From positions 1-20,455 of the IMG/VR virus record IMGVR_UViG_3300021225_000203: 20,455 nt of DNA; one strand, 5' to 3'. Position 1 is the stretch's first letter, and every line of letters begins with the position of its first letter. Shown in pieces: positions 10,247 through 18,639 of this stretch. Under the pieces are notes generated by a model. That model had not been told where the DNA came from and searched no databases. It saw nothing but the letters and a program-made list of their open reading frames with translations. Source of the DNA: a virus. The position numbers and the translations under genes are program-made.

Positions 10247-10702
10247 ATGAAAACTACACAAGACGGCGACCATAAGATTTGCAGCCAATGCCACTCGACC
10301 AAACATATAAACGAGTTTCCGAAAGCGGATCCTCGCACTAAATCTTATTCCAAATATAAGAATGGCATCAAACCTTGGTGTAAAGACTGCTATCGCACAT
10401 ATAACACTAAGTATATGCGAAAGGCCCGTGGTGAAGGATCGAAAGCTTATAGTCATTATTATAAGAAGTATGGTCTAACGCAAGAAGAAGTGATTCAAAT
10501 GCATGAATCACGGAATTTCAAGTGTGATATTTGCGGAAATAATACCGACCATCGGTATGATAAGTTATGTGTAGATCATTCACACACCACAGGAAATGTT
10601 AGAGGACTGCTTTGCTTTAGCTGTAATACCTTGCTTGGTAATGCAAAAGATGATATAATAATACTCAAGAACGCAATGGAATATTTGGAAAGAAACAAAT
10701 GA
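10247..10702 (+). CDS. Endonuclease VII/HNH-type nuclease, probable homing endonuclease
   Basis: 151 residues from ATG 10247. An N-terminal Cys4 motif (C12, C15, C45, C48) is followed by basic residues. The C-terminal endonuclease VII-type domain has structural zinc cysteines C93/C96 and C123/C126, the catalytic segment VDHSHTTGNVRGLLC (D110, H111, H113) and N131 in LGNAKDD. T4 gp49 resolves branched DNA, but this size with an extra N-terminal zinc finger is also typical of free-standing HNH homing nucleases, and I favour that. Expression appears restricted to late transcripts. Its end overlaps the next gene by four bases. Confidence 0.85.
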   Translation: MKTTQDGDHKICSQCHSTKHINEFPKADPRTKSYSKYKNGIKPWCKDCYRTYNTKYMRKARGEGSKAYSHYYKKYGLTQEEVIQMHESRNFKCDICGNNTDHRYDKLCVDHSHTTGNVRGLLCFSCNTLLGNAKDDIIILKNAMEYLERNK

Positions 10703-11235
10703 ACATCTTTGCTGTACACAGTAATCCTATTATTTCCGCACAGTATCTTGTTGATAAACATATCGTTAAAATGGTATTGGAAACAGCTCAATTACTGTCT
10801 ACGGCTCATCGTATTATTGACGGCGAAGAATATGTAGGCACAAGCAAGTCTGGTCGCAAGGCTAAACGATGGCTTCTGCCTGACGACCGCGAACATCACC
10901 TATATTCAGCCACACATATTAATCATCCGTCGGCCGTATGGGCCCGCGCGACCAATAATAACTACACTTGGCTAGCATGTCACTTTGGTGCATTGCTGAC
11001 CGAGTATACATATCGCTATGGTAAACACCATAAGTGTGAAGATATGGTAATTTGGCTTCAATATCCACCGCACAAAATTCCTGTCGGTTATCTGACGCCA
11101 GTAACACCAGCAATGCCTGATGAGTATAAAGTGCCTGGTGATAGTGTCGCGTCTTATCGCAACTACTATCGTATCGCTAAAGAACGTATGCATAAGTGGA
11201 CAAAGCGTGAACCTCCGGAGTGGATCAATGCCTGA
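10699..11235 (+). CDS. Conserved T4-superfamily protein, unknown function
   Basis: 178 residues from ATG 10699. The blocks MNIFAVHSNPIISAQYLVDKHIVKMVLETAQLLSTAHR, HPSAVWARATNNNYTWL, EYTYRYGKHHK and VASYRNYYRIAKERMHKW are, from memory, shared by a protein found widely in T4-like phages. Conserved His, Lys and Trp residues suggest an enzyme or nucleic-acid-binding role, but no function is known to me. It overlaps the endonuclease gene (ATGA) and the next gene. Confidence 0.82.
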   Translation: MNIFAVHSNPIISAQYLVDKHIVKMVLETAQLLSTAHRIIDGEEYVGTSKSGRKAKRWLLPDDREHHLYSATHINHPSAVWARATNNNYTWLACHFGALLTEYTYRYGKHHKCEDMVIWLQYPPHKIPVGYLTPVTPAMPDEYKVPGDSVASYRNYYRIAKERMHKWTKREPPEWINA

Positions 11236-12042: not shown

Positions 12043-12303
12043 ATGATTTACAGTTTCGAAGATATTGAGACAGGCGAAGAGTTTGAACTTCAAATGTCTT
12101 ATGACGAACTAAAAGATTTCCTTGTGGATAATCCCAAGGTCAGTCAGACTTTCCGTATGAATATCGTTGACCCAATGGGTATCGGTATCTCTAAGCCCCC
12201 ATCAGATTTTTCCAAGTATATTTTAGGTAGAGTGAAAGAGAAAGCGCCAGGCGCTAATAAGGCCACTCTAGAAAAAAGATGGCACATACCTAAGGAAATT
12301 TAA
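12043..12303 (+). CDS. Conserved T4-superfamily protein, unknown function
   Basis: 86 residues from ATG 12043. It opens MIYSFEDIETGEEFELQMSYDEL and ends DFSKYILGRVKEKAPGANK...RWHIPKEI; I recall both blocks from T4-like phage proteins related in form to short FmdB-like domains but without the cysteines. Its stop overlaps the homing endonuclease gene by one base, which probably inserted directly behind it. Confidence 0.75.
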   Translation: MIYSFEDIETGEEFELQMSYDELKDFLVDNPKVSQTFRMNIVDPMGIGISKPPSDFSKYILGRVKEKAPGANKATLEKRWHIPKEI

Positions 12304-12833
12304 TGGATTATTATGTTTACGCATACTTACGCCAGTCTGATAAAACTCCTTACTATATTGGTAAAGGTAAAAAATATAGGGCTTGGGATTCAGTAGAACA
12401 TCGTAAACATGGTATTAGTACACCTAAAGATAAATCACACATCATATTGCTTGAAACCAATCTTACCCAAGTTGGCGCTGCTGCCCTAGAGAGACGAATG
12501 ATTTCATGGTATGGCCGTCTTGATAAAAATAATGGTATACTGAGAAACAAAACTGATGGTGGAGACGGAGGTTCCGGAATCATATATTCTGAAGATCAGC
12601 GAGAAAGAATGCGACAGGCTAAACTTGGTAAAAAACAAAAACCCTCACACATTAAAAATATGATCGAAGCTGTATCGCAAGAATGGATAGTTACTGATCC
12701 TACCGGTGTAGAAATAAAGATCAAGAATTTAGCCAATTTTGCAAGAGATAATAATCTCGTATCAAGTTGTTTATATAGAGTTTCCAAAGGTGAAAGAATT
12801 AGTCACAAAGGATACTCTGTAAAACCGATATGA
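12303..12833 (+). CDS. GIY-YIG homing endonuclease with NUMOD repeats
   Basis: 176 residues. The GIY-YIG core is at residues 1-95: YVY (4-6), YYIG (17-20), KKYRAWD with R26, and the catalytic Glu E63 in ALERRMISWYG. A NUMOD3-like helix follows (YSEDQRERMRQAKLGKKQK, about 95-113). The C-terminus is a NUMOD1-like helix-turn-helix (NLANFARDNNLVSSCLYRVSKG, with HKGYSV). This is the layout of the free-standing seg-type endonucleases that spread between T4-like genomes. It sits between a conserved phage gene and phoH and is followed by a terminator at 12860. Confidence 0.9.
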   Translation: MDYYVYAYLRQSDKTPYYIGKGKKYRAWDSVEHRKHGISTPKDKSHIILLETNLTQVGAAALERRMISWYGRLDKNNGILRNKTDGGDGGSGIIYSEDQRERMRQAKLGKKQKPSHIKNMIEAVSQEWIVTDPTGVEIKIKNLANFARDNNLVSSCLYRVSKGERISHKGYSVKPI

Positions 12834-13636: not shown

Positions 13637-13824
13637 AGACATTTAAATCATACAGAGATAAAAGTGATCCAACAAAAGAGAAGAATATAGAAATGGCTAT
13701 GAACGCGGTCAGTGAAGAGGGGCAAGAATATGCTGCTCATGATTATTATGGTAGTCCGAAGAAGATGGTACTAAAGCGAAAGTCACCCAGTTCTTCCGGT
13801 GGAAGTGCAGACGGTGGTGAATGA
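13633..13824 (+). CDS. Small phage protein, unknown function
   Basis: 63 residues from ATG 13633, overlapping the phoH stop (ATGA) and ending over the next ATG (ATGA). Lys-rich start, middle EEGQEYAAHDYYGSPKKMVLKRK, Ser/Gly-rich end. No domain recognised; likely translated with phoH and the exonuclease. Confidence 0.65.
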   Translation: MKTFKSYRDKSDPTKEKNIEMAMNAVSEEGQEYAAHDYYGSPKKMVLKRKSPSSSGGSADGGE

Positions 13825-14492
13825 AGAAGTTTAACTTTGTTGAAGGTCTGCCAGAACTAAAACAGTTAGAGACAGATGAAAGCACAGGCGAACGCTTCTA
13901 TATAACACCAAGCGGAGCCAAACTTCCATCTGTCACTACTGTTCTAAGCCACTTTAAGAAGAAAGCTATGATTGAGTGGCGTAATCGCGTTGGTCATGAA
14001 GAGGCTAACAAGATATCCACACGCGCGTCCATGCGAGGTACTAAGTTCCATAATATGATGGAAGGATATCTTCGCAATGAAGAAAACTTCCTTGAAGGTA
14101 TCATGCCTGACATGAAACAATCTTTTCGTGACATGCAAGAAACGCTTGACTTAATCGACAATATACACTATATTGAGAGTCCGCTACATAGTGAGAAGCT
14201 TGGTGTTGCAGGAAGAACTGATGTTATTGCCGAGTTTGGTAAGACACTTTCCATAATCGACTTCAAGACTTCTACTAAGCAAAAGAAAGTGGAATGGATT
14301 GAACACTACTTCGAGCAAGGCACAGCATACGCTCTAATGTATGAGCAGCTAATTGGAACGCCAATCGACCAGATTGTTATTCTAATTGCGACAGATGATA
14401 GTGACAAGCCTCAAGTATTCATTCGTGATAAGAGCCAGTACATCGAAAGCTTGCTGGAAAAGATTCACCTCTATAAACAGGAAAAGCTATAA
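13821..14492 (+). CDS. PD-(D/E)XK (RecB/MGME1-like) exonuclease
   Basis: 223 residues from ATG 13821. Motifs of the RecB-like nuclease superfamily are in order: KFHNMMEG (H77), E119 in IHYIESPLHS, GRTDVIAEF (D134), IIDFKTS (D147, K149), and the Q/Y motif FEQGTAYALMYEQ (about 165-177). The first half has SVTTVLSHF and a helical cap. Many T4-like phages of marine and soil bacteria carry it in place of other single-strand exonucleases; mitochondrial MGME1 is a relative. It probably trims single-stranded DNA ends in replication or recombination. Confidence 0.9.
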   Translation: MKKFNFVEGLPELKQLETDESTGERFYITPSGAKLPSVTTVLSHFKKKAMIEWRNRVGHEEANKISTRASMRGTKFHNMMEGYLRNEENFLEGIMPDMKQSFRDMQETLDLIDNIHYIESPLHSEKLGVAGRTDVIAEFGKTLSIIDFKTSTKQKKVEWIEHYFEQGTAYALMYEQLIGTPIDQIVILIATDDSDKPQVFIRDKSQYIESLLEKIHLYKQEKL

Positions 14493-14707
14493 TGTATCTA
14501 AACACATGGATGATCGCTGCTGTCATTGTTTCGTTTGGCATCTGTGCCTTCTATAGTAGACGCTCTGGATTTATTCTTGGTGCCACCGCAACTCTTCAGG
14601 CCTTAGAGCGTGAAAGGTTGATCAAAATTCTAGACGATGGTAATGTCAAGCGTTGGACACCATATGATGATGTGCCTGTGAAGAAGGCTACTCGAAAGAA
14701 GAAGTAA
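14492..14707 (+). CDS. Small membrane-anchored protein
   Basis: 71 residues; ATG 14492 overlaps the exonuclease stop (TAATG). One N-terminal membrane segment (about residues 6-22), a middle GFILGATATLQALERERLIKI, and a very basic end (VKKATRKKK). Single-anchor proteins of this type occur next to T4-type core genes; role unknown. It is the last gene before the tmRNA locus. Confidence 0.7.
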   Translation: MYLNTWMIAAVIVSFGICAFYSRRSGFILGATATLQALERERLIKILDDGNVKRWTPYDDVPVKKATRKKK

Positions 14708-14784
14708 ACTATATAAGAATACACTAGAGGTGAGAACGGCCTACTCACGCACCAGAGATGGTAAAGTAGCGAAAGTGAAGAGAT
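14708..14784 (+). other. Leader of the tmRNA locus with a hairpin
   Basis: No gene. TATATAAG at 14710-14717 could be a -10 but lacks a clear -35. GTGAG (14730-14734) pairs with CTCAC (14744-14748) around a nine-base loop. It may be the transcribed leader of the tmRNA precursor or part of the acceptor piece. Confidence 0.4.
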
Positions 14785-14877
14785 TCGGAAGTGGCGTCCG
14801 ACTAGTGTAACGATATTATCGATGAAGGAAGTTGAAAGACGTTTGGGACGGGGGTGCAAATCCCCCCACCTCCACCA
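14785..14877 (+). ncRNA. tmRNA acceptor piece
   Basis: T-stem GGGGG (14850-14854), loop TGCAAAT, CCCCC (14862-14866), acceptor 3' strand CACCTCC (14867-14873), encoded ACCA (14874-14877). An upstream hairpin TCGGA/TCCGA (14785-14789/14797-14801) may belong to it. TTATC (14816-14820) can pair with GATAA (15068-15072) of the coding piece, a possible P2 helix. The true 5' end needs RNA data. Confidence 0.8.
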
Positions 14878-15025
14878 GAGACACACGGTCGAACGCAAGA
14901 TGCTAGGACAAAATATGGTTGTTCGCGGGGCTGTGAACCTTAAAATCACAGGCGGCTGTTCGTTTGATTCGCGGTCTTGGTAGAATCAAAGCTAGTGATG
15001 TACACACTTACCGTGTGTCTTTGAT
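14878..15025 (+). other. tmRNA intervening segment with clamp helix
   Basis: 148 bases removed on maturation. AGACACACGGT (14879-14889) and ACCGTGTGTCT (15010-15020) are perfect reverse complements, extending the acceptor stem so that the two pieces are held together in the precursor. Inside are hairpins CTGTGA/TCACAG (14931-14936/14946-14951) and TTTGATTC/GAATCAAA (14963-14970/14983-14990), and CGAAC (14890-14894), which can pair with GTTCG (14921-14925 or 14958-14962). The expected RNase P cut is before G15026. Confidence 0.8.
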
Positions 15026-15197
15026 GGGGGTGTATTAGGCTCGACCTGCGTGAAATAGGTGACTGGAGATAATCGTAGGCGACTACGTACAAGCGCAAAA
15101 AAACTAAATGCAGCGAATGATAACGCTCCATACAAGATGGCCCTAGCGGCTTAACTTGGTGGGTATGGGTTCCACCTAGAAACAGAACGGGCCCACT
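15026..15197 (+). ncRNA. tmRNA coding piece with tag AANDNAPYKMALAA
   Basis: The tag frame runs from GCA 15110 (likely resume codon) through GCT to TAA at 15152-15154: AANDNAPYKMALAA, 14 residues. Caulobacter's tag, also 14 residues, begins AANDN, and E. coli's ends ALAA. After the stop, GGTGGG (15158-15163) pairs with TCCACC (15171-15176, with one G-U), and its loop TGGG (15166-15169) can pair with CCCA (15192-15195), forming a possible pseudoknot near the 3' end. Confidence 0.88.
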
Positions 15198-15223
15198 TAA
15201 CACACAAACACAAGGAAAATATT

Positions 15224-15478
15224 ATGACTAAGACACCATATGAACTTCGCTATAATCTTCTAGAAATGGCTCAATCTATCATCAACGAAAATCTCATGAA
15301 TGAACGCATTCGTCTCGAAAACGATTGGAATGGTTTAAGGGAACTTGCTATTGCTGCGGCCGAACGCGGCATCAACACTTCTGTTCCTGCTTTTCCTGAG
15401 ATTCCTAAGATGGATCCTAATGCAGTCATTGAGATGGCGAAGTTACTAAACAATTTTGTATCAAACACTGGAGAATAA
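15224..15478 (+). CDS. Conserved small T4-superfamily protein
   Basis: 84 residues from ATG 15224 with AAGGAAAA (15212-15219). It opens TPYELRYNLLEMAQSIINENLMNE, a long helix, then GLRELAIAAAERGINTSVPAFPEIPKMDPNAVIEMAKLLNNFV. I recall this YELR-helix protein from many T4-like phages of marine bacteria, where it is unassigned. It is the first gene after the tmRNA and is followed two bases later by the DUF992 gene. Confidence 0.78.
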   Translation: MTKTPYELRYNLLEMAQSIINENLMNERIRLENDWNGLRELAIAAAERGINTSVPAFPEIPKMDPNAVIEMAKLLNNFVSNTGE

Positions 15479-15479
15479 T

Positions 15480-15935
15480 ATGATTAAGACTACTATTGCT
15501 GCGGCTCTTGTCGCTACCGCATTCATGCTTACACCTGCTCAGGCTAATGGCGTGAAGCTCGGCACTCTTACCTGTCAGTTCGAAGGCGGACCAGGACTTC
15601 TCATCGGCTCTGTTCGTCAGGGTGAATGTGTCTATCGTGACAGTCAGGGCCACACCAAGAAGTATAATGCTGAACTCTCACGCCTTGGCGTTGATGTTGG
15701 CGTAACTGGCAATAAGACTGTCGTTTGGGCCGTTTTCGGTGTTGACGGTAAGTCTAATCTTGGACTCAAGGGAACTTACACCGGCCTTAATGCTGAAGCA
15801 ACTGCTATCGTTGGCGTTGGTGTAAACGCTCTCGTCGGCGGTTTCAAGTCTGGTATTGTTCTCAATCCAGTATCCATTTCTGGTCAGACTGGTCTAAATG
15901 TCGCGGCAGGTGTCGCAACCCTTAGACTGGAGTAA
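15480..15935 (+). CDS. DUF992-family exported protein
   Basis: 151 residues from ATG 15480, with GGAG at 15470-15473. Residues 1-23 are a signal peptide with AQA-N cleavage. The mature protein has the DUF992 pattern as I remember it: KLGTLTCQFEGGPGLLIGS with ECVY, YNAELSRLGVDVGVTGNKTVVWAVFG, LGLKGTYTGLNAEATAIVGVGVNALVGG, and LNPVSISGQTGLNVAAGVATLRLE. Two cysteines probably form a disulfide. DUF992 proteins are periplasmic proteins of unknown function largely restricted to Hyphomicrobiales. A copy on a phage points to host-derived cargo that may alter the cell surface, which is inference. Confidence 0.9.
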   Translation: MIKTTIAAALVATAFMLTPAQANGVKLGTLTCQFEGGPGLLIGSVRQGECVYRDSQGHTKKYNAELSRLGVDVGVTGNKTVVWAVFGVDGKSNLGLKGTYTGLNAEATAIVGVGVNALVGGFKSGIVLNPVSISGQTGLNVAAGVATLRLE

Positions 15936-17066: not shown

Positions 17067-17656
17067 CACAGATACTCTTACTAATATTCGCTCTATTCTC
17101 TGCACTTATTATGGCAATATCGCTGTACTGGAATAATCTATCAGCAAAGTTTGTTTCTATTGCCTTACTTGTGATCTTAGCCAACTGTGTGTACTTCTCA
17201 CTTGATGGTGTTAAAGGTTGGCCCGCAGAAGAACCGCGTGAAGTCAAAGGCAATCTTGCTTCTGTTGTTATTATTAATCCATCAGAATCATTCGAAGGCG
17301 CAATCTATATCAGTGTGTTTCTGAAAGAAAAAGTTAAGTGGTATGAATATTCGTATTCACGTATTGCACCAAAAACATTCTATGTAAAATACTCAAACAA
17401 TCGCGCGTCCGAGTTTGAGAAGGCAAAGCAGGCTATGCAAGAGGGTAAAGAAGTTGTTATCAATGGAATCCCTCCGATGGAAGGTCAGGGAGAAGGTGTG
17501 CCATTTGATGGCGAAACTTTCGATATTTCTTCTGTCATTGGTGATATGATTGCAAGGCTAATGACTAAACAAGAAGACACTTACGAACCAGGTCATCCAA
17601 AAAGTATTGAGATAGTAGAACAAGGTTCTCCTCCAACAAAAGGAACAAGCGAATGA
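17063..17656 (+). CDS. Membrane protein of the TolQR/HtrA module
   Basis: 197 residues; ATG 17063 overlaps the previous stop (ATGA). Two membrane segments (about 3-20 and 29-47) are followed by a periplasmic domain beginning GWPAEEPREVKGNLASVVIINPSESFEGAIYISVFL and a Gly/Pro-rich, acidic tail. I do not recognise the domain. Tight overlaps on both sides place it in one operon with the channel pair and the protease, so it may be a linker or regulator of that complex. Confidence 0.75.
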   Translation: MTQILLLIFALFSALIMAISLYWNNLSAKFVSIALLVILANCVYFSLDGVKGWPAEEPREVKGNLASVVIINPSESFEGAIYISVFLKEKVKWYEYSYSRIAPKTFYVKYSNNRASEFEKAKQAMQEGKEVVINGIPPMEGQGEGVPFDGETFDISSVIGDMIARLMTKQEDTYEPGHPKSIEIVEQGSPPTKGTSE

Positions 17657-18639
17657 GATATGCAATTATAGGGCTAATGGCTCTTGCTCTAGTAGGATGC
17701 AAGTACCTACCAGAAAATACTGTAGAGTTGGTCGATGGTGTTAAGAACGGCACAGTACTCATCGAAAACAAAATAGATGCGGGAAATGGTGGTATTGGCA
17801 CAGGATTCATCATCGGTGAAAACATGATCCTTACCAACAATCATGTGATTGAGGGCAAAGGCAAGCTCACAGTTGTTTCTAATCATGATCAGGTAAGATA
17901 TGAAGCCGAAGTTGTTTATACTGATCCTATTGTCGATCTTGCTATAATCAAGCTAAAGAAATGGGATGAATTTACAAAGCACGAAGAAGCTGTTATTCTT
18001 TCACTTGGTGATAGTGATCAATCAGTTCCTGGCAGCAAGGTGGTAATCATCGGGCATCCATGGGGACTATATTGGACAGTATCAGAAGGTATTGTGTCTG
18101 CAAAGAATCGTCGTACTGGTCCAAATCCAAAGTATGTTGATCAGGTTGATGCCAAAATCTACGAAGGTAATTCTGGCGGCCCAGTATTCAATCAGCATGG
18201 GGAAGTCGTTTGCGTTAGCGAGTTGATGCTTGAAGGAAAAGGTGGCTCATATGGATTCTGTATTCCATCCAATCTGGTAAAGAAGGTAATCAATGATTTC
18301 CAGTTATTCAAAGAAGTGAGATGGAGAGCGATTAATGTAAATGTTGGGTTGACAGACGATGGTAGTTCTGTTATTATAAACTCTGTTGATGCGAATGGTG
18401 CGGCTGACAAGGCAGGAATTAAAGCTGGTGATAAAGTACTAGAAATCTTCACACCAGGTAATCATCCTGTTGGAATTAAAGTCACAAGTCCGAATGATTT
18501 GATAAGTGAAATTGCGGTAATAAATGGAAATGAAGACAAAGTGAAGCTATTGATTGAAAGAAATGGTGAAAAGCAAATGATTGATGTGATTACAAACTAC
18601 AAGCTATCGAACCAATACGAAGCTGATAAGAGCAAGTAA
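17653..18639 (+). CDS. HtrA/DegP-like serine protease lipoprotein with PDZ domain
   Basis: 328 residues from ATG 17653. A lipobox LVGC with C16 predicts a lipoprotein. The trypsin-like catalytic triad is visible: H64 (LTNNHVIEG), D95 (PIVDLAIIKL), S174 (EGNSGGPVFN). A single PDZ domain follows at about 225-320 (VNVGLTDDGSSVIINSVDANGAADKAGIKAGDKVLEI). This is the S1C/HtrA layout: periplasmic quality-control or regulated proteases activated through PDZ binding. The start overlaps the preceding gene by four bases, which argues that the protease works with the channel module. A role in degrading or modifying host envelope proteins during infection is inference. Confidence 0.93.
   Translation: MRYAIIGLMALALVGCKYLPENTVELVDGVKNGTVLIENKIDAGNGGIGTGFIIGENMILTNNHVIEGKGKLTVVSNHDQVRYEAEVVYTDPIVDLAIIKLKKWDEFTKHEEAVILSLGDSDQSVPGSKVVIIGHPWGLYWTVSEGIVSAKNRRTGPNPKYVDQVDAKIYEGNSGGPVFNQHGEVVCVSELMLEGKGGSYGFCIPSNLVKKVINDFQLFKEVRWRAINVNVGLTDDGSSVIINSVDANGAADKAGIKAGDKVLEIFTPGNHPVGIKVTSPNDLISEIAVINGNEDKVKLLIERNGEKQMIDVITNYKLSNQYEADKSK

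Follow-up and report, generated by a model that had tools for sequence, protein, structure and literature searches.

Two-piece tmRNAs are known from T4-like phages: one was reported in phage Melnitz in 2022, both Melnitz and Mosig carry them, and 53 two-piece candidates were called by ARAGORN among 18,146 phage genomes (PMC9004378). The record of Pelagibacter phage Mosig is annotated with SsrA, in the gene order PD-(D/E)XK nuclease, small ORF, SsrA, gp33-like gene. Insertions have also been described in tmRNA genes, with the 2025 tmRNA database reporting a tRNA gene in the intervening sequence (IVS) of one permuted tmRNA and a repetitive element in another, and with group I introns of standard tmRNAs carrying LAGLIDADG homing genes (PMC11915505). 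The stretch analyzed here, which we call the window, is a viral contig of 20,455 bases consisting of one fragment. Its tmRNA is a further member of the published type, the two-piece tmRNAs of T4-like phages, and adds to a known, little-studied set of phage-encoded ribosome-rescue RNAs. Greater weight falls on its IVS than on the tmRNA itself: what appears to be new, judging by sequence, is a folded RNA nested in this discarded spacer, copies of which lie in or beside the tRNA arrays of other phages. We also observed unannotated permuted tmRNAs in Sinorhizobium phage Phosso (L195, 3419-4021, with a long IVS), Caulobacter phage CcrRogue (L198, 1969-2287), and Pelagibacter phage HTVC008M (L197, 2905-3114).

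The Rfam model RF04321 (tmRNA_permuted) matched 14815-15154 of the window over its full length (model positions 1-213) with 98.7 bits (E 1.7e-18, cut-off 47), and ARAGORN, independently of Rfam, also called a permuted tmRNA with the tag AANDNAPYKMALAA. Together with 46.4 bits for RF01849 (alpha_tmRNA) over 14755-15197, these matches bear out the first-pass annotation, which had recognized all parts of a two-piece tmRNA. It had proposed Rfam and ARAGORN as a check; RF04321 and ARAGORN were positive, whereas RF01849 came out slightly below its cut-off of 50, and relatives of the window score 54-124 bits with that model. The acceptor piece (14815..14877, + strand) comprises, in the RF04321 alignment, the 5' strand of a long helix, the T arm, the 3' acceptor strand, and CCA, with the acceptor end at 14867-14877. 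It is followed by an IVS of 148 nt (14878..15025, +), a multi-helix structured RNA with a closing helix of 10-12 bp, and by the coding piece (15026..15197, +), which carries the 5' acceptor strand GGGGGUG, a D-arm-like segment, the 3' strand of the long helix, and the tag frame, and which extends to 15154 in RF04321 and to 15197 in RF01849. The CCA ending at 14877 and the coding piece beginning at 15026 are where the annotation had placed them; its start at 14785 was too far left, as 14720-14809 is a separate skipping-rope RNA (RF02924) and the acceptor piece begins at about 14815. The annotation had taken up neither this skipping-rope RNA nor what the IVS contains, and its open question, whether such a phage RNA had been described before, is answered by Melnitz and Mosig. 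ARAGORN placed the tag reading frame, AANDNAPYKMALAA followed by a stop, at 15110..15154 (+), and the first alanine codon of the tag is uncertain (GCA or GCG).

Across the permutation, the acceptor stem GGGGGUG/CACCUCC pairs at seven of seven positions and keeps G3-U70, as originally described. Among 120 distinct phage permuted tmRNA genes, which had been selected for at least six acceptor pairs, all seven pairs are complete in 119 and G3-U70 is present in 120, and compensatory versions of the stem occur (GGGGGCG/CGCCUCC, GGGGACG/CGUCUCC, GGGGCUG/CAGCUCC, and GGGGAUG/CAUCUCC). Such retention of pairing and of G3-U70, in the window and in the phage genes, argues against a decaying copy, and the impression of a functional gene held up. 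The reading that a T4-like phage carries a permuted tmRNA of alphaproteobacterial type is supported, and all marks of function open to testing are intact. The open tag frame ends in ALAA, the usual kind of ending for a proteolysis tag, and the tags of relatives are intact and similar. The tag bears on the alternative that the tmRNA is a decoy, competing for SmpB or alanyl-tRNA synthetase and thereby blocking host rescue or retargeting tagged proteins. There is precedent in tmRNAs that consist of the tRNA domain only, of the mycobacteriophage DS6A type, which inhibit endogenous tmRNA (PMC11915505, PMC4131195), but a decoy would need no tag frame, whereas the window keeps one and similar tags are kept in its relatives; we regard this alternative as improbable. 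Searches that included positive controls found no SmpB gene, either in the window or in any of 10 relatives, of which five are 140-172 kb long, so that host SmpB is the likely partner of the phage tmRNA, and ribosome rescue by this RNA during infection seems plausible from its sequence features.

Upstream of the tmRNA lies a T4-type PD-(D/E)XK-like exonuclease gene (13821..14492, +; phrog_298, E 2.4e-69), a synteny marker that stands in the same exonuclease-tmRNA order in Mosig; neighbors of the window tmRNA include genes for a PhoH-like protein, this T4-type exonuclease, and a 5' exonuclease. The stretch 12303-12833, just before the PhoH-like gene, resembles, by eye, a GIY-YIG homing endonuclease (YYVYAYLR...PYYIGKGKKYRAW) and has no Pfam match. 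Permuted tmRNAs scored above the cut-off in 44 of 50 viral records related through the exonuclease, a conservation that rules out chance capture. It also weighs on the idea that a bacterial tmRNA fragment was captured as the attachment site of an integrating phage, for which it can be said that integrases are known beside tmRNA-like sequence, for example in a short match by the integrase in Pseudomonas phage MR13. Against this stand the completeness of both tmRNA pieces and the tag, the retention of the gene in a T4-like neighborhood across those 44 records, and the lack of any integrase seen near the window tmRNA, making an attachment site barely credible. The major capsid protein of T4, Gp23, was found at 1e-138 or better in 8 of 13 tmRNA-bearing records tested, five of these eight being exonuclease relatives, and the five records without Gp23 are shorter fragments; no capsid gene was identified in the window itself, a 20-kb fragment. 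The T4-type label given by the first-pass annotation thus rests on neighboring genes and on relatives carrying both the tmRNA and Gp23 (about 1e-140). The gene next downstream of the tmRNA encodes an 84-aa protein (15224..15478, +) with no PHROG or Pfam match and with a homologous ORF in L128, and shortly beyond it lies a gene for a DUF992 protein (15480-15935; PF06186, E 3.6e-40). This DUF992 protein and the Rhizobium-phage relatives of the window's SPFH protein suggest an alphaproteobacterial host. Elsewhere, the window has genes for an Endonuclease VII family protein of T4-type function (10247-10702, PF02945), for an adjoining T4-type pyrimidine dimer glycosylase-like protein (10699-11235, PF03013), and for a protein that, by eye, resembles a secreted serine protease of the trypsin-like (HtrA) type and ends in a PDZ-like tail (17653-18639).

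The skipping-rope RNA directly 5' of the tmRNA (14720..14809, +) matched RF02924 with 53.6 bits (cut-off 36.7, model positions 1-80). The same search recovered the window's own copy as positive control and gave no match in control genomes or in 97 other phage records, leaving the element seen in the window alone, and we rejected it as a regular partner of the tmRNA. In L128 and L131, a short ORF occupies the corresponding stretch. A string resembling T4-type late promoters (TATAAGAATA, compared with TATAAATA) at 14712..14721 (+) is a possible promoter of the RNA region: TATAARAATA has one exact copy in the window, at this site, and the string also precedes the array slot discussed below in L370 and L374, evidence that is suggestive only. 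A glutamine riboswitch as in Melnitz was rejected, as Rfam gave no match to one in the window or in 14690-15240.

The IVS is left unpaired in the Rfam models RF04321 and RF01849. In phage IVSs of at least 34 nt, the two ends pair in 631 of 720 cells over ten positions, falling to 236-455 cells when slid by 1-3 bases, and when 3' ends were re-dealt among genes, at most 420 pairs were obtained at positions 2-9 versus 532 observed. These alignments support a closing helix that covaries, and it is an inherited feature, because bacterial permuted tmRNAs also have IVS hairpins, many in the same register: in our control of 28 bacterial permuted tmRNA genes, from a sample of the phylum, most alphaproteobacterial IVSs are hairpins. 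IVSs in these 28 genes measure at most 75 nt, and phage IVSs are often larger.

What lies within the helix varies widely. When coding pieces are at least 85% alike (181 gene pairs), IVS identity is below 60% in 92 pairs, near the shuffled level of 53% (sd 5), and these dissimilar-IVS pairs include genes with coding identity of 0.99 and acceptor identity of 0.98-1.00. Conversely, the 69-nt IVS is the same in L149 and L132, whose identity is 0.72 in the coding piece and 0.75 in the acceptor piece. Sequence comparison thus indicates that phage IVS content is exchanged in both directions. Some phage IVSs carry ORFs behind a Shine-Dalgarno-like site, among them one for a 52-aa cysteine-rich protein in L128 (1543-1701) and short hydrophobic peptide ORFs in L121 and L390. 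Small ORFs of 23-54 aa span the tmRNA IVS in L128, L390, L047, L066, and L121. An ORF of about 144 aa for an HNH endonuclease (PF01844, E 8e-5 for the L131 copy) occurs in the IVS in five tmRNA backgrounds (L131/L135, L342, L343/L344, L345, and L346); its stop codon sits at the extreme end of the IVS, and the last codons (e.g., KKSL-stop) double as the 3' strand of the closing helix. L131 and L135, which come from different metagenomes, are identical across 1,100 bases around the IVS, making an assembly chimera unlikely. A 22-aa ORF in the window's own IVS was set aside as probably due to chance; it does not span the full IVS, and RNA structure fits this stretch better.

The window IVS folds better than its shuffles (z -2.67), and we rejected it as a known Rfam RNA, as it matches none. 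In a motif search, the tmRNA IVSs of L180/L332, L330, L333, L334/L336/L337, and L339 proved to contain a related unit of about 100 nt. Outside tmRNAs, the unit caps a hairpin, GGTTGTTTCTTC...GAAGAAACAACTT, that precedes the tRNA arrays of L331, L335, and L338, with further array-hairpin copies later found in L368, L379, and L435. The L333 IVS copy equals the L335 array copy over 98 nt, and the L335 genome carries the nested RNA in its array hairpin and has, in a separate place, a permuted tmRNA whose IVS is different. At least 21 different inserts, 31-114 nt in length, occupy this kind of array hairpin; tRNA-like sequence was observed in those of L370, L372, L374, and L375. A model of the nested RNA built without the window sequence (R1) found the window IVS with 53.7 bits (E 1.5e-11 in 526 kb), although a run of R1 with the filters off yielded only a partial, weak match (18.2 bits). 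The closest relative of the window's nested RNA, and its one close relative, lies between two tRNA genes (L430, 6522-6672), with 103 aligned identities and a score of 97.5 against a shuffled maximum of 46. A second model (R2), made from the window and L430 copies, recovered the R1 members in the searched loci; across 580 kb, no other match had an E value under 0.5. The two loop motifs also turned up in L425-L429, L431-L434, and L436, but R1 matched none of these loci and they were taken as chance.

Both sides have changed in 17 of 35 predicted pairs between the window and L430, a comparison that, like the score of 97.5 above, is independent of R1. Over 11 sequences, in an alignment fitted to the structure of R1, 15 of 31 pairs are double-changed and 98.8% of cells are paired, compared with 22-49% when slid. 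Two loops are identical across settings, and a CAAGAU/GUCUUG loop-loop contact is possible, always able to pair and hardly varying. By sequence and predicted fold, then, the nested RNA is a family in three settings tied to stable-RNA genes: the tmRNA IVS, the array hairpin, and between tRNA genes. The nested RNA and its array slot had no match in 50,697 records of sequenced phage isolates, and the family is known from assemblies alone, in which independent contigs agree. Neither the IVS cargo slot, nor its HNH gene, nor the nested RNA family was found in Rfam 15 or the openly searchable literature. As the nested RNA also lies in or beside the tRNA arrays of other phages, the spacer seems to be an exchangeable cargo slot. 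A simpler account would have a functional tmRNA whose IVS is a processing hairpin only, its content neutral stuffing and its likeness to tRNA arrays the outcome of passive recombination between RNA-gene regions. Bacterial IVSs are indeed short hairpins, IVS content varies with the tmRNA arms unaffected, and many phage IVSs are unique (71 singletons). Neutral stuffing would not, however, keep the helices of the nested RNA through double changes with two loops identical across settings, and complete ORFs with Shine-Dalgarno sites span some IVSs; we consider this account unlikely, if less so than a decoy. The variety of cargo in itself fits neutral insertion as well as function.

We therefore prefer, as the probable reading, a working alphaproteobacterial-type two-piece tmRNA that relies on host SmpB and has as its spacer a cargo slot with a nested RNA. 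Both tmRNA pieces would be expressed as one precursor, cleaved by RNase P just before 15026 and processed at the 3' side to leave CCA at 14877, and would pair via the acceptor stem and the longer helix. Charged with alanine, the tmRNA would act with host SmpB in trans-translation during infection, and the tag added to stalled products would be (A)ANDNAPYKMALAA. The excised 148-nt spacer would be a copy of a structured RNA of phage tmRNA/tRNA precursor spacers, not filler. We propose that the slot tolerates any insert, as long as it folds back on itself and spares both tmRNA arms, and that inserts (structured RNAs, small ORFs, and the HNH endonuclease) move through homing or through recombination within the conserved arms. 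That the slot can hold an HNH gene may mean that homing drives part of IVS turnover, and this turnover could protect from the HNH enzyme. Given that the nested RNA sits in a spacer beside RNAs cut free by processing, tmRNA/tRNA maturation should release it as a separate molecule, its ends held by the closing helix; once free, it might work as a small RNA, or it may be no more than a tolerated passenger of the slot. Spacers discarded from tRNA precursors can have regulatory roles, as does the 3' external transcribed spacer of E. coli leuZ, which is a precedent for the mechanism alone, apart from any relation in sequence or structure to the window IVS. The fuller proposal, in which the spacer is an exchangeable slot, intron-like without splicing, with a new RNA family shared with tRNA arrays and released by the cuts that mature the tmRNA, and with room also for small genes and a homing endonuclease, seems to us evenly balanced between right and wrong. 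Such an IVS would let a stable-RNA gene accommodate extra RNAs, short genes, or a homing endonuclease without harm, because normal processing removes the insert.

Compared with described systems, Melnitz and Mosig are closest, likewise having a permuted alphaproteobacterial-type tmRNA in a T4-like phage, and in Mosig, as in the window, a PD-(D/E)XK nuclease gene and a small ORF come ahead of the tmRNA. The IVS of Mosig is a 44-nt hairpin, whereas that of the window is structured over 148 nt, and both described phages have a glutamine riboswitch where the window has none seen and carries a skipping-rope RNA. Alphaproteobacterial ssrA (RF01849) has gene order, acceptor stem, G3-U70, tag type, and IVS hairpin in common with the window, but the bacterial copies listed score mostly 200-318 bits with that model, against 46.4 for the window, and the bacterial IVSs examined stay within 75 nt, against 148. 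Like the loci described here, the T4 tRNA cluster (rnaC, rnaD, and SegB by annotation) has small stable RNAs together with a homing endonuclease gene among the tRNA genes of a phage array; R1 and R2 searches of this cluster gave no match, and a relation of the nested RNA to rnaC/rnaD, of which neither model detected any, was rejected. Unlike the group I introns of standard tmRNAs, the phage IVS cargo involves no intron or splicing. Finally, the inserts in the tmRNA database are single permuted cases, whereas the IVSs of phage permuted tmRNAs repeatedly contain HNH genes, small ORFs, or a structured RNA.
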